From Tetradesmus obliquus (lineage: Eukaryota; Chlorophyta; Chlorophyceae; Sphaeropleales; Scenedesmaceae), in the NCBI GenBank assembly GCA_030272155.1, contig CP126197.1, forward strand, positions 5,076,001 through 5,140,000: a stretch of DNA of 64,000 nucleotides, in the 5' to 3' direction. The notes beneath the pieces are model-generated. The model was given only the letters and a program-made list of their open reading frames with translations, did no database searches and was not told the origin of the DNA. The first letter of the stretch is position 1. Each line of letters begins with the position of its first letter. The translations under genes were made by a program, and so were the position numbers. Of the stretch, positions 16,649 through 63,350 are shown one piece after another.

Positions 16649-18801
16649 CTAAGCCATCTCGTCTTGCTGCTGCAACCCTGCTGCAGCATCTGCTGCTGCT
16701 GCTGCTGTCGGTGTAGCTGCCCTGCCAACAGCTGCCTCTTGACCTGCAGCAGCCTGCCTCACCCCTGCTGCTGTTCCAGCTCCAGCAGCAGCAGGAGGCA
16801 CGCTGCCACTCCTAGCAGCTCCTGCACTGCCACTCCTAGCAAGGCCACCACTGCCCCTAGAACCCCCAGCAGCAGCAGCGGCAGCAGCAGCAGCATACGC
16901 TGCTCTTGCTAGCCCTGGTGGAAGCCCTGCAGGGCCCCCGAGGCCAGACAGCAGCGCAGCAATGTTGCCAGCTGCAGCACCACCGCCGCCTGCTGCCTGC
17001 TGCATTGCCAATCCTGCAAGCGCTGCTACTGTATTTGGTGACAGCGCGGCATGTTCATGGCTGGCAGCAGCAGCAGCAGCCGCAGCCGCCGCTGCAGCTG
17101 CAGCAGCGCCCTGGCCGCCGCCACCTGCAAGTGAGGCCAGCAGTGCTCCAATGTCACCTCCAGGTAAACCGCCAGCAAGCCCTGCTGCTGCTGCTCCCTG
17201 CATAAGCCCTGGGTTTAGCAGCTGGGCCATTGCTTGGATGTTGCCAAGTAAGCCACCAGGACCTCCTGCTGCTGCACCATGATGCTGCTGCTGCTGCAGT
17301 GCTGCTGCTGCTGCCTCCCTCGCAGCAAAGCCCAGCGCTACAGGATCACCGATCAAGCCGCCAGCAGCAGCAGCTGCCAGCGCTGCAGCAGCCGCCGCCG
17401 CCGACGGCTGCAGCGACAAATCGCTGCCGCCAGCCACCGCTGCTGCTGCAGCCGCCGCAGCCGCCGCCTGTGTGGCTGCTGCAGCAGCAGCAGCAGCGTC
17501 CAGATGCAGCAGCCCCTGCTGCTGCTGCTGCTGCTGCGGTGACGCCTGCAAGTGCTGCCGCCGCTGCTGCATGGCGCCCCCTGTTCCAGAGTACACCCCT
17601 GGCTCTAGCCGCTGCTGCATTGCAGGCCGCACTGCTGCATGTGCATGTGCTGCTGCTGCTGCTGAGTCAGAATCGCCATGGCCTGCCTGCTGCTGCGCTG
17701 CTGCCATGCTTGCCAGCCACTTGGCGTGCTCTGCTGCCTGTCGCTCCTGCACTGCTGCTGCTAGCTCGGGAGGCATGGCATGCATGAAAGGGTAGGCCAT
17801 GCCGGCTGCTGCGCAGCAGTTGGGGCACCTGTGGTGGCGTGGCCAGCAGCAGCAGCAGCAGCAAAGTTGGGTCAGCTAGCTGGCAGGAGACAGCAATAGT
17901 AGCCTGTAGCCGTGTTGAGCGGCCGCTCTGCCGCCTTCATCAGCTGAATCCAAATGCTGCGCAGTGAAGCCTCTACACTGACACACCTAGGCAAACACAG
18001 CCTACCTGTAGTCTTGCGGCTCGACCTACCTGTCATCCTGATAATCCCTTGGCGTCACCAGGGTAGACCGGCAATAAAAGTTTTACAAACAGTAAAACCA
18101 CCATTGAAGATGGTGCCAGGACCCACATGTAACTCTGCTCTCTCTCCAAAGCTTAGGTAAGCAAAATTCAAGTGGATCGCCCACCTGTAGTCGTGCGGCG
18201 CCACCTCGCGATCATCTTGGTCATCTCTCGGCGCCGCCAGCCCCACACACTCCCAGTGGAACCAATCACTGCAGTAGTCACACCCCAGCATGGGCCTTCG
18301 CTCATCATACAGGCTCTGGCACATGCAGTATGCCTTAGCTGCCTCTGCAAGTGCTTCTGCCTCCTTTTCAACAGACACCAGCAGGTCTGGCACCCTGCTG
18401 AGGTGATTTCTGGCTTGCAGGACAGCTGCCAAGACATCCGGGTTGCTTAGAAGCCCAGCGCCGCCGCGTGCTGCGGCACTGCCCCGCGCTCCACCCACCC
18501 AAACATGATGTTGGCTGTGGTGATGCTGCTGCGGCCCGCGGCTGCGCGCTAGGGATTTCAAGTTATGCTGCAAGTTGCGTGCGGTGTCGAGCCACAATCG
18601 TGCGGCGGCTGCTTGCTGCACGACGGCTGTGAGCAGCGCGTCGTGAGACTCAGGGGACGGCGCAGACGGCTGGTGTGCTGCTGCTGCTGCTGCTGCCGCT
18701 GCTGTGGTGCGGCCGGGCTGGGGCTTGGGTGAGGGGTCTGCTGAGTAGCCTTCATCTTCGGCATCTTTGATGATGCTGGTGAGGTGCTCCAGCGTAGGCC
18801 T

Positions 18802-18837
<36 letters not shown>

Positions 18838-20435
18838 ACAGTGGATCAGCTTGGCAGAAAGGGGTAACATGGCACTTGTAGCTTGATCGGTCGACAGCAG
18901 CATGCAAAGCCAAGTACAAGTGACAAAGGACCGACAAAGATGCTGCATGTAGATCGCATAGTTAAACACCAATTGTGCCAGGCTGTCTGTGCTGTGTCTC
19001 ACTTCTTGCCGTGCCCAGCTAGGGCCACAGTGGCTCTACTCCTCCAGCTGTCTGCCTCCAGCAGCCATAGCGCCCAAGCCACTACATCATCCTGACCACC
19101 TGCTGCTGCTGCTGCATTGCCAGCTGCAGCAGCTGGTGCAGGGCGGCTGCTGCCGCGCTCGGCGGCTGGCTGCACCTCCTGCTGCTGCTGCTGCTCGTCG
19201 CTGTCCTCATCCCTGCAGAGCTCCACAAGTGCTGCCTGCTTTATGATGGATCGCAGCCCTGCTGCAGACAGCAGGTGGTGCTGCTGCTGCTCACCCTGCT
19301 GCTGCTGCTGCGGTGGTGGTGGCGGCTGGAGTTGCTGCTGCTGCTGCTGGCGCTGGCGCTGCTGCTGCGGCTGCCAGCGGTTGGGCATAGATGCGCTGCC
19401 TCCGCTGCCAGTTGGCGTGGTTGCTGCTGCCGCTGCTGCCTCTGCGAGTGCTGCTGCTGCTGCAGCTTGGCAGGCCTCATGGGAGCGCAGCAGGCCGGCA
19501 AGTGCGCCCTGCAGTGCAAAAAGAAAGATAAAAAATACACACATGTCAGAAGCGCCGAAACACAAAGGTTTGAGGGGCGCGAGGAGCGCCCCAGGCCGGC
19601 AAGCGGCCCCTGCAGTGCAAAAAGGCACTTAGAAGAAGACACGTATGTGAGGAGCACTGCAGTCACCAACAAACACAGACACATAGTGATCACGCACACA
19701 AGTACACCTACCCTCTATTAGAGAAGAGCACATGCGGCACCAATTATACACACTGCCGCACCTGCTAGCTACAGCCACACCCATGCACACAACCACACAT
19801 CAGGCACCAAAGCCTCATCACCAACATACACCTGCCAGCCAGCCCACTCCTCCAGCGTCGCGTTGACCAGCCACTCTTCAGGCATGCCAGGCATTCACAC
19901 AAAGGCAGGCATACTTTATGCACACATGTGCAGCACCTGCCAGCCAGCCCACTCCTCCAGAGCCGCATTGACCCAGCCGCTCCTCAGGCATGGCCAAGCC
20001 CAGCAGCTGCGCATCCAGCAGCAGCCCGACAACAAACACCAAGCTGCCCACCACCCCACAACCCACACGACACACACTCTTCTAGCACTGCAGCCACCAG
20101 CAACCAGCAAAGACACCCACACACGCCACAGGCCAGCATTCACACAAAGGCAGGCAATCTTTATGCACACATGTGTCACACCTGCCAGCCAGCCCACTCC
20201 TCCAGCGCCGCATTCACCAGCCGCTCCTCAGGCATGGCCAAGCCCAGCAGCTGCGCATCCAGCAGCAGCCCGCGCAGCAGCGACAGCGGCAGCGGCCGCC
20301 GCAGCCGCGCCAGGCGCTCCGCTGCTGCTTCTAATGAAGCTGCCTGGCCGTCTGCGGCCTGGCACACGGGGCAGTGCCAGCGCTTGATGGCGCGGGCTTG
20401 CTGCACGGTCAGGCCGGCACACCTGCAGGGACAGC

Positions 20436-20492
<57 letters not shown>

Positions 20493-20665
20493 CAATTAGT
20501 GACACGGCAGGTGGTGGCTAGTGCCAGCGCTTGATGGCGCGGGGCAGGGGCAGCAGCAGCAGCAGCAGCAGCATACAATTAGTGACACGGCAGGTGGTGG
20601 CTAGTGCCAGTGCTTGATGGCGCAGGCCTGCTGCACGGTCAGGCCGGCACACCTGACAGATAAGC

Positions 20666-20706
<41 letters not shown>

Positions 20707-23700
20707 GTTGTAAGTCACCAGCGTGTGACCAGCGCCAGTGCCTGATGACGCGGGCTTGCTGCAGGGTCAGGCCGATACACCTGCACAGGCAGCAGCAGCA
20801 GCAGCAGCAGCAGTGAGGGGTGGGTCTCATGCCTGCTGTTGACTGCTGTTGAAGGTTGACAGCGCAGGAGAAAGGCAGTCAAGCGCTGGCTTGCTAGCTG
20901 TGGCGGCGTGCGCTGGCATGCCCAGGATGTAAAGAGAGCAAGTAAGGAGCAGCAGGCTAGAGGCAGGTGACGTAGCTGTCATTCGGCAAACAAACATTTG
21001 TTTGAATTGTAACAATGCAACAGTGTAACAACAATTGTAACAAATTGCACGCACCTGATATGGTACCAGTCTCCGCAGGCGTCGCAGGAGATGAATGTGT
21101 CCTGCTCATGCGCCAGCAGGCACATGCAGTACACACGCCCCTCCTCCTCTTCACCACCTTCTGCTGCTGCTTCTGCACCCCCAGCACCACCCGCCGCCGC
21201 AGCAGCAGCAGCAGCGGCAGCAGCAGCAGCAGCATCGGCAGGGCCACCTGCATAGTCCCAGCTGGCACCGCTGCCATGCCGCTGCATCTGCTGCTGCTGC
21301 TGCTGGGGAGGCTCCGGTGCCGGCGCAGGCGCTGCTGCTGCTGCAGCAGCACTGGAGCCTGCATCATCATCTTCATACATGCTGTACGCCTTACGCTTGC
21401 GCTGCCTGCCTGCTGCAGACACACCCAAGTCATTCGCGCTGTGCTTCTCCCCTGCCGCCGCCGCAGCCTGCTGCTGCTGCTTGGCTGCCGGACCACCAGC
21501 AGCAGTAGGTGCAGCACTGCTGCTCTTCTTGCTGCCTTTCGGCGGCTTGCTGCCGCCAGCAGCAGCGGCAGCAGCGCTGCTGCTGCCACCGCGCTTGCTG
21601 CTGCCACCCTTCGCGCCGCCAGTTGCAGCACTCCCAAATGATGCTGTACTCGCGTGCCGCGCAAGGCCACTCGCTGCTTCTGCTGCGCTGTCAGACTGCT
21701 GCTGCTGCTGCTGCTGCTGCTGCAGGCCCCCGCCACCTGCTGCTGCTGCTGCTCCTTCGCCGAGCTGCATCAGTGCTGCACCCCCGGCCCCCATAGAGCC
21801 ATGCAGATGGTGCAGCCTTGCTGTGTGCAGCGGCTGTAGGCCGGCGTAGCGGGGTGGCATTGGGATGCCTTCTTGTGCATGCATTTGGCGCATGGCTTCT
21901 AGAGCCAGGGCAAGCCGCTCTAGCAGCACCTCGAGCAGCTTGTCAAACTTGTACAGGTTGCCGCGGCGAGCCAGCGTCCTGCACGTGTACACAGAAGCAT
22001 GCGCGAACAGAGAGCGTACTGTTGCAGCAAGCTCATTAACTACATTTGGAGCAGCTTGTCAAACTTGTACAGGTTGCCGTGTCGGGCCAGCGTCTTGACA
22101 GTACACCATAGCATGGAGCAGAACATCCAAAGAGTAAGATGCTTGCAGCAGCCACACGGACCCAACAGCAACAGCAGCAAGTGCGTTTGGGTAAGGACCC
22201 GCCCGCTGCAAGATGCTGCAAACCGCTGTATGCACACGCAAGGTTAAAAGGTGGGTGCAACCAGCAGTCGCCGCAGCAACACGGTGTGCTGCAAGCCGCA
22301 CCTGCGCCCCTTCTCCCGCCACTCCTCCACAGCAGCCATCAGCACCTTCAGCGGCTCCTGCAGTGGACTCGCAATCGGGTCAGCAGCAGCAGCATCACAC
22401 AGCAGCTGCAGCTCCGACAGCGGCGGCCGCGGCGGCAGCGGCTGCTGCTGCTGCTGCTGCTGCTGCGCCAGTGCACGTCCGCTGCTGCTGCCGGGTCTGG
22501 CGTGTTGCACCTGCTGCTGCTGCTGCTGCTGTGGGGGTGCTGCATCAACTGCCACTGGCTGCGGGTCGCCGCTGCCTGCTGCAGCCTCTGCTGCAGGAAC
22601 ATCAGCAGCAGGAGCAGCATCTGCCGCAGCTGCTGCGGCCTCTGTGTCTACTGCCTCGCCCTCTGCCTCCTGCCGCTGCTGCTGCTGCTGCTGCTCTTGC
22701 TTCTCAGCTGCTGCAGCAGCTGCAGCTGCGCGCTGCGCCCTGGCTGCTGCTGACGCGCGCTGCACGGCAGTCAGCGTGGACCGTGCTGCAGCCTCCCAGG
22801 CCGCATGGCCTTGCAGCAGCGTGCACAGCCGCTCGATGGCCTCCATCCTGCGGGTGGGGTGAAATGCAGAGAAGCTGTCAGTGAATACGCTTCAAACAGG
22901 TGTCAGTGCGCACAGTGGCAGCAGCAGCTGCGTGTGTTGCACAGCCGCTCGATGGCCTCCATCCTGCGGGTGGGGTACAAAGCAGGTTGTTGCACCACAC
23001 ACATGTACAGCTTCACACGCAGTCCAAACATCGTGCTTGTGGTCAGCAGCACGCGTGTGGGTGGCGCAATGCACAAGCGTCTGCGGCGCGGTGCACATCA
23101 ATTGCAGCAAATTGCAGGACAACAGCCCAGGGCGCCAGCAGCCCCCCAACGAAGCGGCAATGCGTTGCCCTGCCTGATCAAGTCACAGCTGCACTTGACC
23201 TCCATTGCAGCCACCCGTATACTTCACACATATGGCCCAGCTTTCTGTCTCAGTGGATGTCTCAATTCGTTCTTATACATATGGGCTGACTCGCACCTGA
23301 AAGGCAGCGCATTGCCTTGGCGAATCAGGTCATGCACATCATCCACTGCCATGCCTCTCCTGGCAGGCACGCCCCCAGGGCCTGGCAGCAGCGCAGCAGC
23401 ACCTTCCTGCCACGCCATGGCAGCAGCAGCAGCACGGCCCAGCACCTCAAGCAGGCCCCTATCCACTGGCAGAGATGCTGCAAGAGATAGCAGGCGCACT
23501 GCTTCTTCCAGGCTGCCTTTGGCGTGCATTGGGACAGCAGCAGCAATGGCTGCAGGGCTCAGCGAGTCATCTTCTTCTGCTTCATCTGCTGCTGCTGCTG
23601 CTGCGGGAGTGCCGGCTGCAGCGGAGTCGGCAGCTGCAGCAGCGCCGGCTGCTGCTGCAGGCTCCTGCAGGGTCTCATCAGCCAGGAGGTCTTCTGCATC

Positions 23701-26596
23701 AGCTGCAAGCTCCGGCTGCGCTGCTGCTGCTGCTGCTGCTGGCTCGCCTGCTGGTGATGATGCATCCTGCTTGGGTGCTGCCTCAGCAGCCGCTGCCTCA
23801 TCAGCAGCTGTTTGCAGCTCTCCTGCTGCTGCAGATGCTGCTGTAGCCTCAGGCTGCTGCTGCTGCAGCCGCCGCTGCCGCCGCATGACTGCTGCGTCAT
23901 GCAGCTGCAGCAGCAGCCTGAACTTGTCGGCCACGTGGCCCTGCCAGCGCAGCGCTGCCAGCCGCGCCTGCAGCGTGACAAGCTCAGGGAAAGCTAGGCC
24001 TATGGACTCGCCATCAGCTGCAGCAGCAGGAGCAGCAGCAGCAGCAGCAGCAACAAGAGCAGCAGCAACAAGAGTAGCAGCAGCAGCAGAGTAGTTGTCA
24101 GTTGTCTGCAGCGTGACGAGCTCAGGGAAAGCTAGGCCTATGGACTCGCCATCAGCTGCAGCAGCAGCAGCAGCAGCAAAAAGCAGCAGCAACAACAGCA
24201 GCAGTAGAACAGTTGTCAGCTGCCAGTCGGGCCTGCAGCGTGACAAGCTCAGGGAAGGCCAGGCCTATGGACTCGCCATCAGTTGCAGCAGCAGCAGCAG
24301 CAGCGGCAGTACACGGCTGAGCCCATTGCACCCATTAAGACCTCGAGGTCGCCGATGTCACGCTCTGCAGCAGCCTCCGCCTCACGCCTGCGCAGCACGC
24401 AACCGCCGCCAGCAGCAGCAGACTCTCTCACAGCACCCGCCTCACGCAGCAAGCAACAGCAGCACACAGCACACCCACAAACTCATCCGGCACCACCACC
24501 ACCACCACCACCACCAGCAGCAGCAGCAGCTCAGCCACATATAGACAAAGCCTGCCCACCTATGAGGGCCTCAAGATCGCCGATGTCACGCTCCGCAGTA
24601 GCCTCCGCCTCGCGCCCGCGCAGCACGCAGCCGCCGCCTGCAGCCGCCGCCGCCTCGCGCGCCTCTTGCTGCTGTGCCAGCTGCGCCACAAGCTCATCGG
24701 CACGCGCCTGCCAGGCCTTGCCCTCAAGCAGCACAGCCTGCATTAGCAATACACATGAACCAGGACTGTTGAAATCAAATCAAAGTAATTAAAGTGATGT
24801 ACAGAAGTGGCAACAACAGGTGCGGCAGAAGAGTTGCCTGCCAGGCCTGGCCCTGCAGCGCCTGTATCAGTGCATGCAAAATGACATGACAAGAGATAGT
24901 CAGTATCGATGTGGCCAGCTGCACTGCCAGTTCCTCGGCACGCGCCTGCCAGGCCTTGACCTCAAGCAGCACAGCCTTCGTGCAGCACCAGCAAAGGTTA
25001 CTTGAGCTTGCATAAATACTGAGCAAGACGGGCGCCCCGCAGCCACAATGTGCCTGCACCAGCGAGTCATGGAAGTGGAGCCCACGCTGTATGTGTACTT
25101 TTTGCGGTTGATTTTGACTGTCAAACAAACACACAGCGACCGCTGCCAGTTTGTGTTTGCTAACATGTTACAAACAGATGCTTGAGCAGCTTTCTCAACG
25201 AGCCTCATCCCTGCTTTGCCCCGCACCTGCAGGTCGCCCATGTGCCCTAGCGCTGCCCGGTGGCTGCCGCTGACAGCAGCAGGTAATGCTGACTCCCAAC
25301 ATCCCCACCCAATACAACACAACACCAGCGCGCTACGCCCACACAAACACACGCACCTGCAGGTCGTCCATGTGGCCTAGTGCTGCTCCTGTGGCTGCGG
25401 CTGACAGCAGCAGGTCCTGCACACGCTCGGGCGAGGGCAGGCTGCCTGCAGCCCCATCCAACACAAAACCTGAACCCTCTGTACACACCCATGCACCTGC
25501 AGGTCGTCCATGTGCCCTAGCACAGCAGGCAGGGATCTGTCACCCACACAACACCCTCTGCCATACCCCAGCAGTCCAATGTTGGAAACTCTACCGTTCT
25601 CATTACACACACACACACACACACACCTGCAGGTCGTCCATGTGCCCCAGTGCTGCGCCGGTAGCTGCGGCTGACAGCAGCAGGTCCTGCACACGCTCAG
25701 GGGAGGGCAGGCTGCCTGCAGCCATGTCGTGGCGCAGCGCCTCAACACGGCCCTGCCAGGACGCGCAACCAGCCTGCAGCAGCAGCAGCAGCAGCAGTTG
25801 TGATATGTCAGCAGCACGTCAGCAGCCATGTCGTGGCGCAGCGCCTCAACACGGCCCTGCCAGGACGCGCAATCAGCCTGCAAAAGGCATGCAACAGCAG
25901 CAGCAGCAGCAGTTGTGTGTCAACAGCAGCAGCAGCAGGAGCAAAGCATGATGTAGCGCAGCGCCTCAACACGGCCCTGCCAGGACGCGCAGCCAGCCTG
26001 CAGCAGCAGCAGCAGCAGCAGTGTTTTGAAGCACAGCATCAGCAAAGCATGCCGCTTCCCAGCGTGACGCACCACATGTCAGCAGCAGCTGCGCATGATG
26101 CGGCACACCTCAGCTGTCATCAGCCAGGCCCTGCTGCCCAACCCCTACTTGACGCCTGCCCCACCTGCAGCTTGGACAGCTCACGCAGCATGACCCAGCA
26201 GCAGCAGCAGCAGCAGCACAGCACTACGCAGCAGCACATAAAACTGCACCATGTCCGTCCCACCTGCAGCTTGGACACTTCAGTGAGGCACAGCAGCAGC
26301 ACAACAAGACACAGCAGAACATCAAAACACATGATGCCCCGCCCCACCTGCAGCTTGGACGCTTCAGTGAGCCGCTCCATCTTCACTCCAAGAGCAGTGC
26401 CAGCCTGCACCAGCGCAGCAAGCTCCTGCAGCCCAATCTGACCTGTGCGCGGCGCTGCTGCTGCTGCTGCTGCAGGGCTGCTAGCTGCTGCTGGGCTGTC
26501 AGCAGCAGCAGGAGAGCCAGGCTGCTGCTGCTCCTCTGCTGCTGCATCTGCAGCTTGCTGCTGGGGCTCGGCATCAGCCACAGCTTGATCCTCACC

Positions 26597-26636
<40 letters not shown>

Positions 26637-26684
26637 GGGTCGGCTTCTGCCATTTCCTGGTCACCTGCTTGCTCAGCCTCAGCC

Positions 26685-26721
<37 letters not shown>

Positions 26722-26876
26722 CAGCAGCTTCCGCAGCAGCTGCCTCTTCCTCTTCCCTGATTGCCTCCTCTAGCACCGCAAGCGCAGCACGCGCAGCAGC
26801 AGTGGCAGCAGCAGCGCCGCTGCCGGCGCCACGCCTTGAGACGCCGCCGGCTGCAGCAGGCTGCGCAGGCGCCGCC

Positions 26877-26915
<39 letters not shown>

Positions 26916-27277
26916 TCAGACCCTTCAGCTGCATCTGCTGCTGCTCCTGCTGCGTCTGCAGCGTCAGCATCCATATCTGCTGCCGTTTCCTCTGCAGCAG
27001 CAGCAGCAGCAGTAGCTGTATGTGCTGCCCCCTGCTGCCCCTCAGGCCCTGCCCACTGCCCCACTAGGGGCTGATACTCCTCCAGTGCCTCATCATCTGC
27101 CAGCCCTGCTGCTGCCAGCGCAGCAAGCTTGGCTGCTGCTGCTGCTGTTGCGCGGCCCAGCAGCAGCGCCGCGCTGCTGTCCCATTCCAATGCGTCTTCG
27201 AGGCGTGTTTTGAGGGCCCTGGCTTGCCTGCTGGTGGCGGCTCCCATGCGAGCGGCTTCCTCAAGGATCTCTGCAGT

Positions 27278-27313
<36 letters not shown>

Positions 27314-27680
27314 CGAGTAGTATGTCATGCATAACAGTCAAGATGAGTTGATGCACGAGCAGGTGCGTCGCAGGGGCAAAGGCTGGAGAAACCGCTACGC
27401 CCTATGGACGAGCATCTACAAGTCCAGCAGCACCCACACAGCAACGCTGCACAGTCAAAAAAAACAACATGGTCAAACATGGTCAAACTTGATCCAAACC
27501 CTCGTACCTGCCAGGCTGCTCATGCTGGTCTTGCCGCCCAGGGCGCGCCGCGCGCTCTCCTCCCATTCGCGCCGCCGGATGCGGCCCCGCAGCGCCTCTG
27601 TCGCTTCAACTTCCACGCCAAGCCGCTCCCCCGCATGCAGCAACTCGCGCATGGCCTTGAGGGGGCCACCCTGCAGCAGC

Positions 27681-27714
<34 letters not shown>

Positions 27715-32169: not shown

Positions 32170-32212
<43 letters not shown>

Positions 32213-32783
32213 GCCCAAACTGACTCCAGCAGCAGCAGCGCCAGCACCAGCTTCGTGCGACACATCAGAGCTGCGCTGCTGCTGCTGCTGCTGCTGCTGC
32301 TGTGTGCTGACAATTTGCAGCAGCAGCTCAGCATCCCGAAGCATCTGCTGATCCTCCCCACCACCCTGCTCCACAACAGGAGCAGCAGCAGCAGAGGCCT
32401 TCGCAGCAGCTGCTTTGCCGCCGTCCGACTTGGCCGACGACGGCCGCGACCCAGCAGCCTTGCCGCCACCACCAGCTGCTGCTGCTGCAGGCCCAGCAGC
32501 AGCAGCAGCAGGTGCAGCAGCAAAGCCTGCAGAGCTGTCGGAGCCGCCCCTGTTGGCGCTGCGCAGGCGCCGCGGCCGCACCCCAAAGCCGCCTTCAGCA
32601 GCAGCAAGCTCAGCCGCCAGTGCTGCATCACGCGCAATCTGGTCCAAGTCGAGCGAGCCTGACGGCGCTGCTGCTGCTGCTTCTGCTGCTGCTTCGTCGC
32701 CGGCCTGATCAGTGCCCTGCTGCTGCTCTGCTGCTGCTGGTGGTGGTGCAGTAGGGCCGTTGGCCGCCTTCTCTGCTGCGGCT

Positions 32784-32816
<33 letters not shown>

Positions 32817-33200
32817 CCGGCATCTTCCTGCTTCACAGCTGCAACCTGCTGCTGCTGGGGTTCAGACTCGGGGCCCTGCTCCTGCATGTGTGCATCTGCA
32901 TGGCCATTTGGCAGCAGCTGCTGCTGCTGCTGCTGCGCACACTGCAGCTCATCGCTGTGCTGCTGGTGCAGCTGCATGGCATCAGGCCCCTCTGCACCCG
33001 GCTCCTGCTTCACAACAGCTGCTGCTGCTGCTGCTGCTGCTGCCTGGCCATCAGCGGTGCCAGCTTCCTGCTTCACATCAGCAGCAGCAGCAGCAGCAGC
33101 AGCAGTAGCAGCATCCCCAGAATCATCTGCGGCAGCAGCAGCAGCAGGGCCAGGCCCTGGCAGCTCCTCTGCTGCTTCTGCCATGGCCACATCCGTGCCC

Positions 33201-33234
<34 letters not shown>

Positions 33235-36024: not shown

Positions 36025-36089
<65 letters not shown>

Positions 36090-41505: not shown

Positions 41506-41543
<38 letters not shown>

Positions 41544-41579
41544 GGGGTTTGTCAGCAGCAGTAGGTTTGTCAGGTTTGT

Positions 41580-41640
<61 letters not shown>

Positions 41641-44133: not shown

Positions 44134-44175
44134 AGTCAGCACATGAGTTAACCACGGTCAGGCTTAGTTTTAGGG

Positions 44176-44208
<33 letters not shown>

Positions 44209-51282: not shown

Positions 51283-51316
<34 letters not shown>

Positions 51317-51396
51317 TGCTTTACTGTTGAACAGATCACCAAGGCCACACTGGGCCTGCTGCAGCGCTTGGAGCCCTGGGCCATGTGCATCGACTA

Positions 51397-51445
<49 letters not shown>

Positions 51446-51532
51446 CTCTCAACACCAGATCACTAAGGCCATGCTGGGCCTGCTGAAGCGCGTGGAGCCC
51501 TCCACCACTTGTTACTCGTGTGTATCGACCCT

Positions 51533-51568
<36 letters not shown>

Positions 51569-53193
51569 ATCCACCGAACAGATCACTAAGGCCACGCTGG
51601 GCTTGCTGAAGCGCGTGGAGCCCTCAGCCTCTGGTCGTTCATACTTTTTGACCTTTCTTGCTGCTGCTGCTGCTGCTGTTTGGGTTTGTGTTCAACAGAT
51701 CACCAAGGCCACGCTGGGCCTGCTGAAGCGCGTGGAGCCGTACATTGCGTGGGGCTACCCCAACCTCAAGACGGTGCGCGAGCTCATCTACAAGCGCGGC
51801 TTCGGCAAGGTGGACGGCAACCGCATCCCGCTCACAGACAACCGCATCGTGGAGCAGGTGCGGCTGAGGCTGGGGTTTTGGACAGCTGCTGAGTTTATAA
51901 CCTGGTTTTACGAGTTTTGTGAGGGTTAGTAAATGGAGGGTTCATGGTGAACCTGGGCAGTCGCAGCAGCAACAGAGTTATGGGCACCTGGCTGTGCTAG
52001 AGCCTAGCTGCAGATCTTCCATGTCTGGTTGGCTGTTGGGGTTCATTTGCTGTGCGCCAAGGACACCGTCTGTCTGTGCATACGACCGTATATCTCTCAC
52101 TACCTGCGTCAATCTGCCTGGCTGGCTGCCCGCCCACCTGAACGGTAAAGGGTCAGTGAACCACCAGGGGCTGCGTGCAGAGGGGCGGTTGTGGAGGACC
52201 CGATGTATCAGTTCTGCAGTAGCTGTGTTTACAATTATGATGACAAGGTCTGTGCTGCTGCTGCTGCTGCTCGCCAGGTGCTGGGTGCCAAGAACATCCT
52301 GTGCACGGAGGACCTCATCCACGAGATCTACACCGTGGGCCCCGCCTTCAAGGAGGCCTCCAACTTCCTGTGGCCATTCAAGCTCAGCAGGTGCGGCGAT
52401 GATGATGCAGGCTTGCTTGCAGCGTGTGTTAGCCTATGAACGGCATAGTGCTGCATGCTGCAGCTCTTGATAGCTGTTGCAAGGAGGCCTCCAACTTCTG
52501 TGGCCATTCAAGCTCAGCAGGTACAGCTGATGTTGTGCAGGCAGCAGCGGCAGCCAGCAGTGCAACTGCAGTTGTGGATTTCACGAGGTGCATCGTATCG
52601 CATCGCTGCGAGTATGGTGCTGCATCTGCGCAGCTGCAGTTCCAGTGCTGTTAGTGACGCATGTGCCGTCAGATGTCCTGGTAGCGGCTCGACTTGCAAT
52701 GCCTGGCAGCCCAGTGCAAACAACAGGTGCATCTGTGAAGTGACGAATACACACCGCCCTGTTAGTGCAGGCTTTGTGCCAACGTCAGCACCTGTTTCCA
52801 ATTGCCTATGCGCTTCACGCTCTAAACACATTCTCATCCGAGTAGGATGGCCTTTCAGCGCCAAAGCCATCTTCTGCCCTGCTTACATTTTTCAATTGAA
52901 AACTCTTTCTTTACATTTGCTGCTGAGGGTGGCCGAGGCTGACATATATTGCGTTGTTTGCCCTGTTTCTCTTTCCCTTGTGCAGCGCATTTACTCAAAT
53001 TGAAAACTCTTTCTTTACATTTGCTGCTGAGGGTGGCCGAGGCTTGACATCTCTTGCGTTGTTTGCCCTGTTTCTCTTTCCCTTGTGCAGCGCACGCGGC
53101 GGTGTTGACAAGAAGCGCCTGCACTACGTGGAGGGTGGCCAGGCAGGCAACCGCGAGGCAAAGATCAACAACCTGATCAGGCGCATGAACTAA
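49202..53193 (+). CDS. RPL7: 60S ribosomal protein L7 (uL30)
   Basis: Six exons: 49202-49363, 49698-49817, 50058-50117, 51699-51857, 52278-52390, 53091-53193; 717 nt, 238 aa, the normal length for the eukaryotic protein. Landmarks: [15 protein letters not shown], the basic N-terminus ([20 protein letters not shown]), [76 protein letters not shown], and the end [15 protein letters not shown]. It is a structural component of the cytosolic large ribosomal subunit. Introns 3 to 5 are packed with junction echoes and CTG repeats, although the coding sequence is strongly conserved. It lies head to head with the hydrolase gene. Confidence 0.96.
51205..51640 (+). repeat. RPL7: Four acceptor echoes of RPL7 exon 4
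   Basis: Copies of the first 45-50 bp of exon 4 start at 51209, 51335, 51459 and 51582; the true exon starts at 51699. Spacing is 126, 124, 123 and 117 bp. Each unit holds (CTG)n, an acceptor and ATCACYAAGGCCACGCTGGG. Three of the four keep CAG; the first has CAA. Confidence 0.95.
51398..51443 (+). repeat. (CTG)15 in RPL7 intron 3
   Basis: About 15 uninterrupted CTG/GCT units inside the third echo unit; other units carry 4 to 10. Confidence 0.92.
52481..52522 (+). repeat. RPL7: Donor echo of RPL7 exon 5
   Basis: Forty bases repeat the end of exon 5 and its GT donor (real 52350-52392) with a single C missing, 130 bp further on. Use of this donor would shift the frame. Confidence 0.93.
52894..53097 (+). 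repeat. RPL7: 104-bp tandem duplication across the RPL7 exon 6 acceptor
   Basis: AATTGAAAACTCTTTCTTTA through TTGTGCAGCGCA occurs twice in a row (from 52894 and 52998). The second copy holds the real acceptor at 53090/53091; the first has an identical acceptor followed by non-coding sequence. Only a few bases differ. Confidence 0.95.
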
Positions 53194-54481: not shown

Positions 54482-57400
54482 TCACCTAGCAGGCTTCGGT
54501 GCAGGCTTGGGCGCAGGCGCCGGCCCGCCGCCTGGCGGTTTCGGCGCCGCTCCTCCTGGCGGTTTAGCTGCACCCCCAGCCGGCGGCTTAGGCCCTGCTG
54601 CTGCTGCAGGCGGCTTGGGGCCTGCTGCTGCTGCCGGCGGCTTGGGTGCAGGTGCCGGGCCGGCTGGCGCTGCTGCTCCTGGCGGCCGCTGCAAAGGCGG
54701 GTTGTTGGGCGACACCACGAGGTAACTCGACAAAAAGTAGATCGTGTTGGTGCTTGTCGGTGGGCCTCCAAAGCCAACTGCTGCTTCCACAATGAAGTTG
54801 GCCTCTGGCAGCTTCCCAAAGTTTGGAAAAGGCCCCAAGCTGGTCTGTATGCGCTGGTTGTCGGCTCGTGTGATGCGCCAAGCCCACGTGAGGTTGCCGG
54901 GCGGTGTGGGCTTGCCATCTGCGCCTGTTACTTTGATGTCGGGGCAGCCGAGCCAGGTTTCACCGGCAGGGTTTGATTTGAAGGGAGGGCACTTGCCGGT
55001 GACGCGCGGCAGGGCGGTGCCCTGCTCTGGCCGCGGGAACACCTGCAGGCAGGCGCGCAAACGGGGAGGAGCATGAGGGCAGCGTGTGCGGCGCTGGCAA
55101 ATCATTCACACACCATGCTGGGAGAACGGTCGAGGAATTGTGCCCTCCATGCTGCGGCGCTGCAGCAATCAAACTGCCGTGCATTTGGCAACTGGATTTG
55201 ATCACTACTTCAAACCTCAACCCAAGTAACAGCAGGCGAGCTACTGCAGAAGCCTGCTACAGCAGAAAAGGACGGCATATCTATCCAGCCCCACACAGCA
55301 ATTATCCTACTCATCCATTCACCACCACCCACCTTGATGTTGCTGGTGCCAGTTGTGGACTTGTTGCTGATGGGCTCCGTCACCAGCAGCACCAGCTGCA
55401 GGCTCTCCGCATCTTCCAGCAGAAGGCTCACATGCTGCCCCTCTTTCGTCGTCACTGTCTGCCCCGTGCCCCTCGACTTGAGGCTCCACTTGTACTCAAA
55501 GCTGCTCAGGTTGCGGAACGGCACTCCAGTTGACCCGGCATCGATCTCGAGCACTGCGTCTTGACTCAGTGTCAGAGATGGCAGCCGCAGATCGATCTGC
55601 AACGGTGTGGGCGCTGGAGGAGGTGGTACAGGTGGGGGCGGCGCTGGTCCGGTACCCTTTTTGACTTTCAGGCCATATGTGCCAGTTGCAGTGAGGCTTC
55701 CGTCGCTTGCAGTGACCACAATCGTGTAGAGCTTCTCGCCGACTGTCGGCGGCACATTCTGCAGCGACACCACGCTCCCTGCGCCGGACTTGATCACCTG
55801 ATCATCCAGCTTAATGTCCCATTTGACATCCACTGGATCGTTGTTTGGATCCGTGATCGCCGGCAGATTCACGCGCCCGCCGGACTCGCCCTCGAGCGGC
55901 GCCGCGAGCTGCGGAATAACCGGCGGCTGCTGCTCCGAGGGATTTGGAGATGGTGAAGGCGAGGGAGGCGGCATGTCTTCCACAGGAACCTCTCCAGGCG
56001 GGGGAGGCGCCATTGGCCCGACGACAAAGTTCTTCTGCGCGATCGCGTTGTTGGTCTCGCTGTCGAGGACGAGCAGCCCGACTTGGTATGAGCCCGGCCG
56101 CAGCCGCACCTGCGCGGTTGTAAACGCAAGTTGTTGTTTGACTGGATACAGCTACTTAAACGTCTAGTTGAAATGGCATGAGCTGGATGAGCTGCCGTGG
56201 AGGCCGTCGTTGTGTCTGTTACATAAGTGCAAATGCTGCATTGTTGACTTGGTTGTGAAACTTGTGAAGTACATAATCAGCAGCCGCAGCCGCACCTGCG
56301 CGAGGCGGCCTGTCGCGTTCACAATTGGCGTGGGCTTGCCATCCGCGGTGAGGTTGACTCGATCCACGAGTGCCCAGATGTACTGTGTGATGCTGCTGCC
56401 CGGCTTGGGGCTGCTGTTCTGTGCGTCGAGCAATACAGAGGTCCAGGGGCCTGGGGAGGCAGGCACGTAGGAGAGGGGCTGGCTGATGACAGCGATGAGG
56501 CCGCCGGGGGTGCCTCCAGCCACCACAAAGTTCTGCAGCAGCAATTGAGGGGCAGGCATACACACATGGGGCAGGTCAGACGATAGCAGCCGATCAGTGA
56601 GCAGCTTGCTTTGGCATCTGCGCTGCAGTTTCCAGCCACCAGAAAGTTCTGCTGATGCACAGAAGCGGCAGGAATGCACACAAGCAGCCGCCAGGGGCCT
56701 AGGGAGGCAGGCACGTAGAAAAGAGGGGTTGGCTGATGACAGCGATGAGGCCGCCGGGGGTGCCGCCAGCAACCACAAAGTTCTGCATCGAAAGCGGAAG
56801 TGTGGTGGTGTGGCAGGGCATATGTGCATTCATTCAGTGGCAGGCAGCGGTCACACTTATGACGCCTGGTTACAAGCACTAGAGCTGCGATGAGGCCGCC
56901 GGGGTGCCACCAGCCACGACAAAGTTCTGCAGACGCAAGGGAGGGGCAGGCATGCACACAAGGGCAGCGGACGAGTAAGTGAGCTTGAACTCCGTTGCGG
57001 TGCCATTCCGATCACCTATGTGATGCTGGAGTTCTTTTCCGAGGTGTCCACCAGTGACACAATGTAACTGCCCACGACGCTGCAACTACTGGCAGGCTGC
57101 CTGCCATTGCTGCTGCTGCTGCTGTTGCTGCTGCCTCACCTATGTGATGCTCGCCCGAGTTGTCCACCATCACGAGTGACACAATGTAACTTTGCAGGGC
57201 CCACGCAGCAACAATGCGCATCAAAAATCTGTTGCTGTGCCACTCCGCTGACCTGTGTGATGCTGGAGTTCCTACCTAACGTGCGCACCATCACGAGTGA
57301 CACAATGTAACTGCCCACTACCCTGCAACTACTGGCAGGCTGCCTGCCATTGCTGCTGCTGCTGCTGCTGCTGCTGCTGGGGCCTCACCTGTGTGATGCT

Positions 57401-60400
57401 GGAGTTCCTTCCCGAGGTGTCGACCATCACCAGTGACACAATGTAACTGCCCACCGGCAGCTCCACAAAAGCCGCATTCGCCTGCTGCACAGTCGCGTTG
57501 TAGATGATCTGCATGTTGCCCGGCTGCGCGGTGCTGATCGTCCAGATGTAACGGTCAATCAGGTGACCTGGCGACGGCGTTGACCCAGAGGCGTCGAGGT
57601 TTATGCTTTTGTTGCCGCCCTGCAACTCATTGCCGGCAATGACGATCGGCGGCGGGGATTTGATCTTTGCCACCATGATCGCATTGGGCCCTAGGCCGGG
57701 GGCGTTAGATGACTGGCCGGGGCCTGTTACTTTGAATTGTAACGGTCCCTGGGTGCTGCTGGCGCCCGTGTTGTCAACCACGTTGAGGGTTACTACATAT
57801 AGCCCGGGCGGCAGCATGACTGTGGTGGTTTGACCAGTGGCGGTTGCCTTAGGCGTGCCGTCGGTTGCTGACTTTATGACCCAGCCATACGCAACCTGGG
57901 ATGCAGCAGCAGTTGAAGACACAATGGAGCAGTGGTCAGTGGGTTGAAGGCAGGACAGCAGAGGGTTTGTTGTGCAGCACATCTGGACAAGTCAAACACA
58001 GGGAGCGCAGGAGAGCTTGCCAGCACCGTACAGTAAAGCCATGCACCACCAAGCATCACCAGTCCGACAGCAGCTGCCGCAGTTTGTTGAACTAACAAGT
58101 CAGCACACACAACCAACACTGCATTGCCAAGCACAGCCCACGGCACTCACGACCCTCCTGTTATGCTTGCATTCAGCAGCATAGCACAGCATGCACAGCA
58201 CAAGCACCGCAAACGCATACGCACAGCATCACGCACAGCACAGCACAGCTCGCAGCACTCACGATCCTCCTGCCAGGCGCCGGCGCACTGCTGCTGGCAT
58301 CCAGCAGCACAGGCCCAAATGCAGTACAAGCGGTGCAGCATAATCACGATCTGAGCATCACCCAGCACACCCCATGGCACTCACGATCCTCCTGCCAGGC
58401 GCCGGCGCACTGCTGCTGGCATCCAGCAGCACGGGCCCTAGCCCAGTGGGTCCGGCCGACACCTCAAAGCCAGGCGTGGGACTTTTGATCAGCGCAGATG
58501 TGGTGCCCGGGGGTGGGGGAGGGGCCATTGCTGCAGGGCCCGGGGGTGAGGGTGGCGGGCAGTAGCCCCAGTAGCCGCCCGACCAGTAGAAGCCTCCGGG
58601 GACGGCACCCTGGCCTGGAGGGGAGCTAGCAAACTGGCCTGCAGCAGCAGCAGCAGCAGCAGCAGAAGTGGCAGCAGCAGGGACCTTAGACGATGCACAG
58701 GGTAAGCGAGAGCTACAACCCTGTTGTGCAGCAATCTGGCACCAACAACAGCCGCCTACTGCTGATGCCATGGACAGAAGCACTCCAAAGACTGCACACG
58801 CAACTACTTCGGCAGGCAACAACCCAAGCATCGACACTTGTGCTGGTGTTGTGCGTTGCCTAGCTGCACAGCCCTCACCTGTGCCAGGGTCAAAGGTACC
58901 TCCAGGGTTGGGGTTCTGCCCAATGAACCCTCCCCCACTGCCCAGCTGACCCCCACCAAACTGCCCTCCAATAGCAGTACTAGGCGTCAGTGCTCCACCA
59001 GTCAATGTGCCCTGGCCAGCTGTATATGTGGCAGCTGCCCCGCCAGCCTGGCCGTAGGGATTACTCCCGCCGGGGTAGTAATCGCTACCTCCCATCAGGT
59101 AGGTGTTAGGGTCCTGCCCTAAGCCCTGAACCACAGTCGGCTGCTGATTACCACCCAACACAGGCTGACCTGGCGTCTGTAGTGATGAGATGCCTTGCTG
59201 CACCATGTTGCTGCCAATGTTTTGGATCGCCTGCTGCCCCTGCTGAGCCATGCCTGTGCCATAGCCAGCCATGGCACTCACGGCTTGCCCTGGGAGCTGA
59301 GCCAGCTGCCCCATGTTCTGCTCATAGTTCACAGATGCATAAGGGTTGAAGGTACCTTCCTGGAAGCTTCCACCACTGGTGCCTGGCATGCCATCACCTG
59401 CTGCTGCTGCTGCTGCTCCTGGCATGCCAGATCCTCCTCCTAGCGGACTGCTGCCGCTGCTGCCAAGTGTGCCTGCCTCCCAGCCTGCTAGGGCGCCGTA
59501 TGGGTTGTAGCTGCTGATGCTGCTGCCGCCACTGCCGCCGCTGCTGCTGGTGCTGCTGCTGCCAGGCAAGCTGCTGCTGCTGCTGCCAGGCAAGCTGCTG
59601 CTGCTGAACTGGCCATTGAAGCCTCCCACGTTGTTGCTGGCTGACTTGCTGCTGAAGCTCTGCGCACCCTTCTTGTTGAACAGCGCACCCAGCAGCCCCC
59701 CAACACCGCCAGCAGGGCTGCTCCGGCCTAAACCGCCAGCCAGCCCGCCGCCTAAACCCCCGCCACCCAGCAGCCCACCACCTAAACCTCCGGCACCGCC
59801 AGCTAGATTGCCGGCTACATTGCCAGCTAGGTTGCCGAGTGCTGCCAAGGGGTTGTTGTTTAGCGCACCCAGGCCTGCTTGAACATTCCCCAGGGCATTC
59901 AACCCTCCGCCTAAACCGCCGAGCCCGCCACCTAAACCGCCAAGCCCGCCGCCTAAGCCGCCGAGCCCGCCGCCTAAACCTCCAAGCCCGCCTAAACCGC
60001 CGCCAAAGTCCCCGCCAAAACCACTGAGCCCAAAGTCCGCAGGGAAATTGTTGCCGGCGGCTGCGTTGACTGCGCCGACGCCAAATGACGTTATTTCGGG
60101 GTTTGTCATGAACATGGAGGCCTGCTTGAGTCCCCGGCTGCCGCTGCTGCTGCTGCTGCTGTCGCTGGCAACGTGCTTGCCAGCCGATTTAGCGGGCCCT
60201 GCTGCTGCTGCTGCTGCCTGACTGTCCTTGCTGCCGCTGCTGCTGCTGCTGCTGCCAGTTGTTTCTGTGCCCGCTAGCCGCATGCCTGCTCCGCTGTGCA
60301 AGCCAGCCGCCAGTCCACCTAGGCCCTGGCCTACCCCATACATCCCACCAGCCGCAATATTGCCAAACGACTGCCCCGCACCCCTCGCCAGATTGCCTGA

Positions 60401-63350
60401 AACCTGATTCCCCAAGCTGTTGACTTGGTTCACCACACTTTGACCCATCGTGCCAATTGAGTTCTGCACATTGCGCAGGATGGCTTGAGTAGGGATTGCC
60501 GGCACGACTTGACCAGTGGTTGGATCGTACTGTGTGTTAGGGTATTGCGGCAAGCTCTGCGGTGCGATTGCAGGGAATGGGATCTGGCCATTGCTGGTGA
60601 AGTAGCAGAGGGGTACTGAGGGTGGGAAAGGAGGTGGAGGTGGGCTGGGTGGGGGAAAGGGTGGGGGAGGGGGCCGGGGGGGTGGCGGGGGGCGGGGGGA
60701 TGGAGGAGGGGGCCGCGGTGGGGGTGGTGGGGGCGGCGGACTGCAGAGCAGGACGGCAAATGCGGACAGCAAATGTGGCATCGGCAATGGCAGCAGAACA
60801 TAAGAGGAAGGGTGTAAGCAGTAGCCTGAGGGGCGACGCAATAAGAGGTGAAATATGACGCTGCCTGGCTGCACAGCAAAGCAAATCAATAAACTGCAGC
60901 GCACAGCCTGCAATAGACATGCATGCAGTCTTCCTGCCAGCTCACCTGGGAGGTAGCTTCTGACGCTGCACGGAAAAACAATCAGACAAACTGCAGCGCA
61001 CACTCTGCAATGGACACAAATGTACTAGATATTCTTTTGTGCCAGCGCACCTGGGAGATGGCGGGGGTGGGCGTGGCGGTGGTGGTGGCGGCCGCGGTGG
61101 CGGCGGCGGCAACGGCGGGAGCGGCGGTCGCGGCGGCGGAGGTGGCCGGGGCGGCGGCGGCGGCGGCGACGGCGGCCGTGGTGGCGGCGGCGGCGGGTTG
61201 GGCGGCCTAGGGGGCCGCGGCGGCGGCGGCGATCTGATCATGCGCGATCCAAAGTTATCCATGACGTGTGCGTAGGGGTTGATCTGGCCAGCCTCAGGGC
61301 GTAGGGTTTGGGGATCTGGGTTAGCGTAGCCGCCGCTGCTGCCGCCGCCGTAACCTTGGACCGGGGTGCTGCCGCCAGTGAGTGACGGTACCGCACTGGA
61401 TAGCACGATCAGTGCCGAGTTGTTCCAGTGTGCGATGCCAGAATCTGACTCAACAGTGAGGCCCACAACATACGAGCCTGGCACAGTTAGGCTGACAAAT
61501 GCAACTGGCTCGCTGACGTCTTGCTTGATCTGACTTGTCAGATCTATCTCCCTCGGAGAGATCATCCGTAACGCCCAGCTCCAGGTGATAATCGGGTCCG
61601 AGGATGACGCCATGCTGTAAGATCCATCCAGCTGCAGCGGATCTGCATCTGTCAGTGCGATGACGCCCTGATTTGGTAACGTAACAATAGGCACTGGATA
61701 GTCCTCTGTGCTGGCAACTTTTACTGCTGCAGGCTTGCCGATCTGCCTTGGGGCTAATACAGGATCAGCAGGCATGATGAACGGTGGTGGAGGTGGAATG
61801 CCCCACATGAACCTCCCACCCTGCTGCTGCTGCTGCTGAGGTGCCGGTGCTGCTACTGCTGCTGCTGACACGCGGGCAGGAGCAGCACCGTAATTGCCGT
61901 ATGCAGAGTACCTCCCACGCTCGAGTGGCAGGCGCATGTTGGGCGGCGGATGATCGCTGCTGCTGCTGCTGCTGCCAGTCCTGCCTAAGCCAGCTAGCTG
62001 TGCCAAGACGTCTGCATCAGCATGTAGCACATCACCTTTGCTGCCAGCAGCAGCAGCTGCTGCTGTTGCTGCTGCCGGCGTACCAGAAGGAGTCAGCGGC
62101 TGCCACAGCGCCCCATGCAAGCGGCGCCCTGCTGCCGCATCTGCATCTGCTGCTGCGTCTGCTGCTGCTGCTGCTTGTCCGAGGTTCTCAGGCGCTGCAC
62201 TGCCAGGTGGCAGTGGTGGCGGCGCCGCAACAGCTGGCACAAACGGCGGCGGGGCAGCCACAGCAGCAGCAGCAGCTGGTGCTGGTGCTCGCGGCATCAC
62301 AGGGGGAGGCACGTAGTGTGGCGGCACAAACGGCGGCGGGCTGGCTGCTGCTGTGCTGGGGGCTGGCGGCGTTGCTGGCGCAATGAAGGGCGGCGCCCTG
62401 CCTGGCAGTGTGCGGAGCTGGCTGGCTGCTGCTGCTGCTGTTGCCTCTGCTACTGCTGCTGCTGCTGCGTTATCATCTGCTGGTGATGGCAGGACAGGTG
62501 CAACAGCATCACTGTTGTCGTTGCCTGGGAATGGCGGCCCCCTGCCTGGAAGTGTGCGGAGCTGGCTGGCTGCTGCCTCTGCTACTGCTGCTGCTACTGT
62601 GGCGGCTAGATCGGCGTCTGGGGCTGGCGGGGCAGGTGCTGCTGCCAGGAATGGCGGCGCCCTTGCTGCTGCATGCAGCAGCTCATGCATTGCTGGAACA
62701 TCAGCAGCATGCGGTGACCTTGCCTGCCCAACTCCTCCTCCTGCATCTCCTCCTGCTGCTGCTGCTGCTGCTGCTGTCACGGGTGGTGGTGAACCAAGCA
62801 GCATTGCCTCAGGAGAGTAGGGTGGGGGTGCAGCCATCATTGCTGCTTCTGCTGCATCACTGAATGCTCCTGCTAGGGCTGCTGCTGCTGGGGAAGGTGC
62901 AGGTGGGGGTGAGGGTGACCCCACAAGCAGGGCGGCTTCGGCAGCATCTGCCACCATCACGCTGCCACCAGCTGCTGCTGCTGCTGCTGCTGCCGCTGCT
63001 GGGATTGCCGATGCACCCTGTTCACTTTCAGTGCTGACGGCAGCTGCTGCTGCTGCAGTGACTGGAGCCTCCTGTTCACTCCTGCTGTCTGCTGCTTGCT
63101 GCAGCTGCTCGTGTGGTTCAATTTCAGCCGCCTGCTGCTTAGTGGCCAGCTGCTGCTGCACCTGTGGCGGCTGCACTGCTGGTGCTGCATGCTGCTGCTG
63201 AGGTGGGCGTGTGAAGCTGTCAGGCAGCAGTAGCTTCAGAGAACCTGGTATCAGCAAGATGTGAGAGCCCAGCTCACTGCTGCTGCCACTGCTGCTGCTG
63301 CCACTGCTGCTGCTGCCACTGCTGCTGCCATCACTAGTTATACCGTCCAC

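Follow-up and report, generated by a model that had tools for sequence, protein, structure and literature searches.

Tandem echoes of exon edges in introns of Tetradesmus obliquus, with a preferred unit length and unequally conserved halves

Why should an intron contain copies of the exon edge beside it? The question is raised by a stretch of 64,000 nucleotides of Tetradesmus obliquus (assembly GCA_030272155.1, contig CP126197.1, positions 5,076,001 to 5,140,000; hereafter the window), in which a KDM5-like gene, a hydrolase region, the ribosomal protein gene RPL7 and a PKD-like gene have short tandem arrays at their exon-intron boundaries. A preliminary description of the window had reported that exon ends with their donor sites are repeated downstream, and acceptor sites with their exon starts upstream, within the adjoining introns, and self-comparison together with the printed arrays found them at the places named. 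Each such copy, here called an echo, consists of an exon-derived and an intron-derived half. Two properties of the echoes had been missed and are central to this work, namely that the repeated unit has a preferred length, and that the exon half is conserved and the intron half mostly randomised. The explanation that we prefer, with a probability of roughly 0.55, is that DNA segments of about 120 bp spanning the junction were duplicated in tandem, the exon half being homogenised afterwards with the exon as template.

The window belongs to a 104.7-Mb assembly of 17 contigs and was analysed together with 200 kb of another chromosome (C1) and with stretches of two further contigs (C9 and C14), so that the total sample is one genome, 344 kb and four contigs, all of it assembled DNA. 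Genes were predicted with our own hidden-Markov model, for which 20 exon pieces of the window served as the seed and the window together with the 200 kb of C1 as training sequence; C9 and C14 remained outside this training and serve as the replicate. The first training gave too many tiny exons, and the final model has a stronger intron penalty. It learned the donor CAG/GTGAG and the acceptor TGCAG/G, with a median intron of 277 nt and a median exon of 159 nt. The RPL7 exons 52278-52390 and 53091-53193 were recovered, and one error was made in the same gene, where two echoes and part of a third were fused with the real exon 51699-51857 to give 51365-51857.

Two sets of junctions were used. The curated set comprises 25 visually selected junctions, 23 of them belonging to the KDM5-like gene and 2 to RPL7, for which alignment of the exon edges gave 52 hits; five were dropped as spurious and 47 kept. 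The automated set comprises 460 junctions of 264 accepted exons (112 junctions in the window and 348 in C1). Of 216 automated hits, 105 lie more than 6 nt from the junction; chance matches and repeat-rich ones are among them, and the study leaves them aside. Echoes under the identity threshold were excluded as well, and so were those found with a query exon that is a repeat unit itself, as stated with the counts.

Echoes, junctions and the unit of intron growth

Thirty-six short tandem arrays were found in the window, 31 of them overlapping a predicted exon-intron junction, and 28 in C1, with 23 doing so. At least one echo was detected automatically at 66 of the 460 junctions, that is 29/112 (26%) in the window and 37/348 (11%) in C1, and in the replicate at 6/121 (5%), one in C9 and five in C14. 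Counted by introns, 19/65 have an echo in the window versus 26/216 in C1 (Fisher P 0.002). The window is a dense case of a phenomenon present on all four sampled contigs, with a single echo in C9. The preliminary description had spoken of most introns of four genes. By the looser measure of array overlap this holds for the KDM5-like gene (26/35), which is unusually rich in arrays, and for the hydrolase region (4/4), but not for RPL7 (2/5) or the PKD-like gene (3/7), and by the stricter automated echo count only the 19/65 introns of the whole window qualify. Its remark that two ECM genes have no equivalent is correct (0/13 introns) but unremarkable, the probability being 0.19 at the C1 rate. 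The ECM label is a putative one, taken from the preliminary description.

Is the junction itself special? The copies had been said always to include it, and 44 of the 47 curated echoes do reach within 6 nt of the junction, but three stop 13-26 nt short and junction-free arrays exist. One of these, at 30482-30667, is a perfect 30-bp repeat of 6.2 copies, 100% identical, which lies within a predicted intron and is young. When compared with the expectation from shifted annotations, junction arrays number 23 versus 11.9 in C1 and 31 versus 16.1 in the window. The corresponding figures are 1 versus 8.3 and 0 versus 7.1 for wholly intergenic arrays, 0 versus 3.1 and 3 versus 7.1 for exon-only arrays, and 3 versus 3.1 and 2 versus 4.3 for intron-only arrays. 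Wholly intergenic arrays amount to 1/64 overall, plus one at a gene end. Within genes the ratio of junction to intron arrays is 54:5, moderately over the shifted expectation of about 28:7.5.

A comparison of junction-containing repeats with random exon positions had been proposed as a check. On the intron side there were 216 complex, direct, same-strand matches to exon sequence. Of these, 111 end no more than 6 nt from the junction, versus 36.1 expected if they lay anywhere in the exon; for tandem copies geometry makes such an excess inevitable. The inclusion of junctions is largely explained by two facts, that exon sequence cannot be copied in tandem into an intron without crossing the boundary, and that introns are short (median 277 nt). 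Curated echoes have their exon-side breakpoint at a depth of about 21 to 97 nt in the exon, and the automated set reaches 168 nt (3/111 beyond 97); breakpoints have no tie to splice sites, and unit length is the steadier quantity. Given this geometry and the spread of the breakpoints, the idea of a process aimed at splice junctions is not upheld. A fair conclusion is that the arrays belong to intron-containing genes and persist where coding sequence is undamaged, the junction excess over intron interiors being modest. Taken as a whole, the observation made in the preliminary description is partly confirmed and its interpretation partly supported.

Unit length was measured on 39 first copies, after removing from 50 the ten in which the query exon is a repeat unit and one with a spacer of 3 nt. 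Their period ranges from 92 to 142 nt with a standard deviation of 13.6, compared with 14.5 for the exon part and 18.2 for the spacer, and the two parts are negatively correlated (-0.67, or -0.75 with all 50 first copies, one outlier included). If exon part and spacer were independent, the standard deviation of the period would be about 23, against the observed 13.6. The upper period limit of 150 was imposed by us and the lower was not; among the offsets of nearest echoes the next value above 142 is 181. Unit lengths gather around 120 nt, and none of the 52 nearest echoes falls below 94 nt, although two curated periods are shorter (84 and 79).

Echoes of one array also tend to have a common inner exon breakpoint. 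Over 18 arrays, 23/54 pairs agree within 3 nt versus 6.5 in permutations, or 17 versus 5.4 when the largest young array is removed, and 11 arrays have at least one such pair versus 4.8 expected. This suggests that the copies arose as whole units. Both the steady period and the shared breakpoints are observed directly, and both would be expected of tandem duplication followed by amplification in whole units, given a preferred unit length. The introns lengthen in step. In C1 the median intron is 260, 366 and 487 nt for 0, 1 and 2 echoes (n=190, 23 and 3), and in the window it is 265, 319, 597 and 819 nt for 0, 1, 2 and at least 3 echoes (n=46, 13, 4 and 2). Roughly one unit of intron length is gained per echo, in agreement with the earlier suggestion that introns lengthen in this way.

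Unequal halves and their explanation

The copies are diverged, as had been noted, by about 10% on average (224/2256 columns), and this divergence is very unevenly placed. In the 39 nearest echoes the exon-derived half is identical to its source at 0.909 and the intron-derived half at 0.615, with unrelated pairs at 0.546. The 13 best-conserved echoes (exon at least 0.93, mean 0.969) have intron halves at 0.587. For all 87 pairs of real edge and echo the values are 0.893 versus 0.639, with a correlation between halves of 0.24, and for all 54 echo-echo pairs 0.869 versus 0.688; intron halves exceed the 95th percentile of the null in 22/87 and 21/54 pairs respectively. The eight echoes of the C9/C14 replicate gave 0.923 versus 0.621. 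At donors, ungapped identity is about 0.92 in the final 20 nt of the exon and 0.44 in nt 6-10 of the intron, where the null is about 0.26 and gaps add to the drop; at acceptors it goes down from 0.87-0.96 to 0.52. On the intron side it stays over the null to about nt 20.

Joint duplication followed by drift predicts divergence of about t in the exon half and 2t in the intron half, and against this prediction the contrast is anomalous. Very different mutation rates do not seem to be involved, since exon and intron identities are close wherever the intron halves are still homologous. In pairs with intron halves of at least 0.80 they are 0.934/0.884 (12 real-echo pairs, 5 of them from one array) and 0.917/0.887 (15 echo-echo pairs).

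The echoes themselves evolve as neutral sequence. Taking the nearest echo at each of 52 junctions, 115 synonymous and 129 non-synonymous codon changes were counted (47% synonymous), together with 26 frame-shifting and 2 frame-keeping indels. A synonymous share of 0.40-0.51 is expected, under simple spectra, if the echo drifts and the exon takes only synonymous changes, and the observed share thus indicates neutrality. In multi-echo arrays, changes private to one echo are 34 synonymous and 47 non-synonymous, and the others 26 and 9. The non-private changes look as if they had been fixed in the exon under selection, each echo being a snapshot of its exon.

Several candidate explanations were rejected. 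Coding constraint on the echoes was suggested by an initial count of 124 synonymous versus 70 non-synonymous changes (41/47 echoes, some of them 7:0 or 9:1), which shrank to the private and per-junction figures above; the early excess is explained by a real exon that, from one duplication to the next, takes up synonymous changes alone. Alternative or mutually exclusive exons do not fit, as 26/28 indels shift the frame and the synonymous share is neutral. A conversion load, by which echoes would be kept intact lest they overwrite the exon, was set aside by reasoning, as conversion would erase synonymous differences as fast as others. Finally, automated echo offsets seemed to avoid multiples of three (9/52), which would suggest selection by nonsense-mediated decay; the predictor merges in-frame echoes into exons and 17/44 curated offsets are multiples of three, and the bias was therefore treated as an artefact.

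How might such units arise and come to differ in their halves? We propose that genes acquire short tandem duplications whose unit is about 120 bp, and that those crossing one splice junction would be tolerated, splicing still taking place at the outermost, real site. Each duplication would add one unit to the intron, leaving an echo of the exon edge and its splice site, and units might amplify further as blocks. The intron-derived half would then drift freely. For the exon-derived half and the first few bases of the splice consensus, the real exon would repeatedly serve as the template, through short-tract gene conversion or template switching, while it is itself kept constant by purifying selection. 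The contrast between halves is a direct observation, and exon-templated homogenisation is its probable cause; the real site is presumably the one used in vivo, which for RPL7 is supported by the annotated protein.

Re-templating is favoured by the shared breakpoints, the steady unit, the residual intron homology to about 20 nt and a mosaic array at 28627-29341. In this array the echo at -331 has an intron half closest to that of the echo at -537 (0.93) and an exon half closest to the real exon (0.95, versus 0.82 for -537), which is evidence for recombination between copies. Discordant closest relatives of this kind are clear in this one array. Several points weigh on the other side. The mosaic is a single case, and the exon parts, at 26-86 nt, would be short substrates for homologous gene conversion. 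Intron identity is at the null level in about three quarters of the pairs, with few intermediate values, which conversion acting on gradually ageing arrays does not obviously predict. The gene models are self-trained on genomic sequence, and 19 of the 25 junctions picked by eye coincide exactly with those of the predictor. The eight C9/C14 echoes carry 23 synonymous and 14 non-synonymous changes, somewhat over the neutral share (P 0.07 against 0.46), and leave a little room for coding constraint.

Perhaps the intron half was never duplicated at all, a repair or replication error having written only the exon edge and splice site into the intron. This alternative, which we consider doubtful, would account for the sharp fall of identity just beyond the splice consensus and for the near-null intron side of the 13 best-conserved echoes (0.587 versus 0.546). 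It would also suit the 33614 array of C1, in which three echoes are 97-100% identical over 36-37 exon nt beside near-null spacers that are alike only at their ends. However, independent insertions would not give the common inner breakpoints within arrays, and the period varies less than an independent exon part and spacer allow. Nor does such copying explain intron identity over the null to about nt 20, or the clear intron homology of about a quarter of the pairs.

It is unlikely that duplication at random sites and selection would suffice without any homogenisation, the exon copy being frozen and both intron copies drifting. It would account for the inclusion of junctions, for the rarity of arrays in the middle of exons and for the synonymous share, but the predicted gap in divergence is about twofold, where about 9% versus 38% was seen (39 echoes), and the strong correlation of halves that it predicts was 0.24 (87 pairs). 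It fails for the echo-echo pairs as well (0.869 versus 0.688 in 54), and is already disfavoured.

The splice sites of the echoes raise the question of function. As had been reported, some copies have lost their site: GT is kept in 22/25 and AG in 19/27 nearest echoes, or 41/52 together. Those that remain do present splice-like sites, whose scores are lower on average than those of the real sites but sometimes at least equal to them. Echo donors average 5.6 versus 6.9 nats for real ones (20 cases, at least equal in 8) and echo acceptors 5.5 versus 7.7 nats (24 cases, at least equal in 6), or 14/44 curated cases overall, with a scoring model trained partly on the same sequence. Echoes might then serve in RNA as decoy sites or splicing regulators, kept by selection blind to codons, which would explain why the exon half and splice dinucleotide are conserved and the intron half is not. 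This seems quite improbable, given that echoes occur in unrelated genes with spacers lacking a common motif, that frame-shifting indels are common and several echoes are without their site, and that array density differs strongly from gene to gene. Misassembly, to which tandem repeats are prone, is the least probable source of all, as the copies differ by substitutions and indels, have halves of different age and occur on four separate contigs.

Beyond duplication with exon-templated homogenisation, a wider proposal can be put forward tentatively. It is possible that a recurrent process writes the exon edge and splice site into the neighbouring intron at steps of about 120 nt and keeps refreshing the copies from the exon, so that purifying selection on coding sequence would be projected into non-coding DNA and introns would grow in quanta. 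Such a process may be coupled to transcription or splicing, because similarity stops at the splice consensus and only 1/64 arrays is wholly intergenic.

Genes and arrays of the window

The genes and arrays are listed in Table 1. The exons with JmjN, ARID, PHD and JmjC domains form a set that we take to be the KDM5 architecture. The six-exon protein read from the RPL7 gene is 100% identical to T. obliquus OEZ86_008096, our query having one extra residue at the join of exons 3 and 4, and one of its exons matches ribosomal protein L7/uL30 among solved structures. The annotated protein reads ...GVFVR-ITKATLG... and ...FKLS-SARGG..., and thus uses the junctions called real and not the echoes. A PKD domain was found, supporting the label of the PKD-like gene. 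No Pfam family was found in the two stretches of the hydrolase region that were scanned, and hydrolase remains the unconfirmed label of the preliminary description.

Table 1. Two genes and selected arrays of the window, with positions counted from its first letter
Feature	Position	Strand	Remarks
KDM5-like gene	16649..42707	-	Pfam JmjN 2.4e-13, PHD 4.4e-13, JmjC 5.6e-07 and ARID 4.6e-17 exons; arrays overlap 26/35 predicted introns
Donor echo, KDM5-like	18000..18240	-	real exon end 18185
Acceptor echo, KDM5-like	19482..19655	-	real exon start 19508
Donor array, two echoes, KDM5-like	19828..20272	-	real exon end 20182
Acceptor array with CTG tracts, KDM5-like	20372..20813	-	real exon start 20422 (predictor 20400); one internal copy without junction
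Acceptor echo, KDM5-like	21933..22097	-	real exon start 21978
Acceptor echo, KDM5-like	22822..22985	-	real exon start 22847
Acceptor array, two echoes, KDM5-like	23954..24309	-	probable real exon start 24017 (predictor 24155, within array)
Donor echo, KDM5-like	24329..24637	-	real exon end 24560
Two-sided echoes of exon 25627-25773, KDM5-like	25222..26022	-	two acceptor echoes upstream, three donor echoes downstream
Donor echo, KDM5-like	26208..26393	-	period 84; real exon end 26348
Acceptor echo, KDM5-like	28008..28195	-	real exon start 28058
Donor array, two echoes, KDM5-like	28253..28585	-	real exon end 28500; one echo ends 19 nt before junction
Acceptor array, six echoes, KDM5-like	28627..29341	-	echoes of start of exon 28500-28680; exon/intron part mosaic
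Donor echo, KDM5-like	29435..29682	-	38 nt; real exon end 29655; not caught by curated alignment
Acceptor echo, KDM5-like	30214..30383	-	real exon start 30272
Donor array, two echoes, KDM5-like	31125..31354	-	real exon end 31307
Largest array of the window, KDM5-like	33650..34973	-	nine diverged copies (70-86% identical) of end of exon 34891-35065
Acceptor echo, KDM5-like	35008..35203	-	real exon start 35065; 58 exon nt at 95%, intron side at null level
Acceptor echo (36587-36751) and three donor echoes, KDM5-like	36173..36751	-	real exon end 36473; GT lost in 2/3 donor echoes
Acceptor echo, KDM5-like	37085..37235	-	real exon start 37122; weak match to end of JmjC profile
Donor array, three echoes, KDM5-like	37374..37898	-	real exon end 37820 (predictor differs)
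Donor array, two echoes of JmjC exon end	38158..38510	-	real exon end 38432 (predictor differs)
Array, hydrolase region	46077..46727	-	period about 112
Array, hydrolase region	47460..48126	-	periods 84-118; automated donor echo (28 nt) of predicted exon edge 48087
RPL7 (uL30) gene	49202..53193	+	6 exons; real junctions beside echoes match annotated T. obliquus protein
Acceptor array, RPL7	51184..51744	+	four echoes of (TGC)n, acceptor and 41-46 exon nt; real exon start 51699
Donor echo, RPL7	52349..52542	+	real exon end 52390; 41 aligned exon nt, zero substitutions, one 1-nt deletion
Full-length 105-bp tandem duplicate, RPL7	52894..53094	+	ends 4 nt within exon; real exon start 53091
Acceptor array, PKD-like	56443..56964	-	predicted exon start 56532
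Donor array, PKD-like	56988..57454	-	predicted exon end 57389
Donor array, PKD-like	58121..58447	-	predicted exon end 58385

Some further observations were made in the same sequences. Several acceptors, as well as the first acceptor profile learned from the window and C1, have runs of (CTG)n or (TGC)n in place of the expected pyrimidine tract. An exon of C1 (L004:540-1060, which is C1:2010540-2011060) has a 65-nt acceptor echo upstream (97%) and a 53-nt donor echo downstream (90%), and matches a dehydrogenase E1 family weakly, under the Pfam cut-off. A seven-copy array of 125 bp at C1:2100194-2101089 has exon and intron halves about equally conserved and is apparently young. Interstitial telomere-like repeats, with GTTTAGGG units, lie at 15026-15085 of the window.

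Significance and known systems

How introns lengthen is poorly known. In the arrays described here an intron gains length by steps that can be counted and whose traces can be dated, the exon serving as an internal reference, so that a single genome could yield rates of duplication, conversion and decay. If homogenisation is true, non-coding copies can look conserved without having a function, which matters wherever conservation is read as function. The duplicated sites are natural tests of splice choice, and also a practical trap for gene prediction, as in the RPL7 fusion at 51365-51857.

In the literature covered by our search, which was partial, there was no report of intronic duplicates whose exon halves are kept exon-like, nor of intron growth by unit steps. 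Related processes have been described. Introners (PMC9860276) are likewise repeated sequences in many introns of one genome; they form one family at unlinked genes, whereas the present arrays resemble their own exon and their spacers form no family. An introner family was considered and rejected, the spacers matching each other only via trinucleotide or GT runs, with exact matches of at most 12 nt, save for two spacers of one C1 array; nor did any boundary of an inserted element come to light. In the intron gain of Rogers and Hellsten, an AGGT duplicated inside an exon makes an intron bounded by two AGGT copies (PMC3443670, PMC4974935). Intronic DNA is again derived from exonic DNA by tandem duplication, but the event starts inside the exon, and each echo examined here lies on the side of its own pre-existing junction.

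The tandem repeats of Chlamydomonas reinhardtii and Volvox carteri reach their highest density in introns and are significantly commoner near junctions (PMC3887541), so that a peak of intronic tandem repeats at junctions is common to these green algae and to T. obliquus. They are discussed in that part of the paper as short motifs (for example GT/AC), with exon-edge copies unmentioned, whereas the repeats here are copies of exon edges. Tandem genomic duplications are reviewed in PMC3443670, and the internal gene duplication of Gao and Lynch (2009) is cited both there and in PMC4974935. There is also a likeness to boundary-crossing duplication, known from an intron of the potato RdRp gene (PMC4974935) and from Gao and Lynch, in which, as here, the duplicated segment crosses one intron-exon boundary and brings splice signals into the new copy. 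In T. obliquus, however, it is the existing intron that grows, and the creation of a new one was not observed. The events also differ from the potato RdRp type in recurring at 5-26% of junctions, with a preferred unit of about 120 nt, amplification of the units and much stronger conservation of the exon half than of the intron half.

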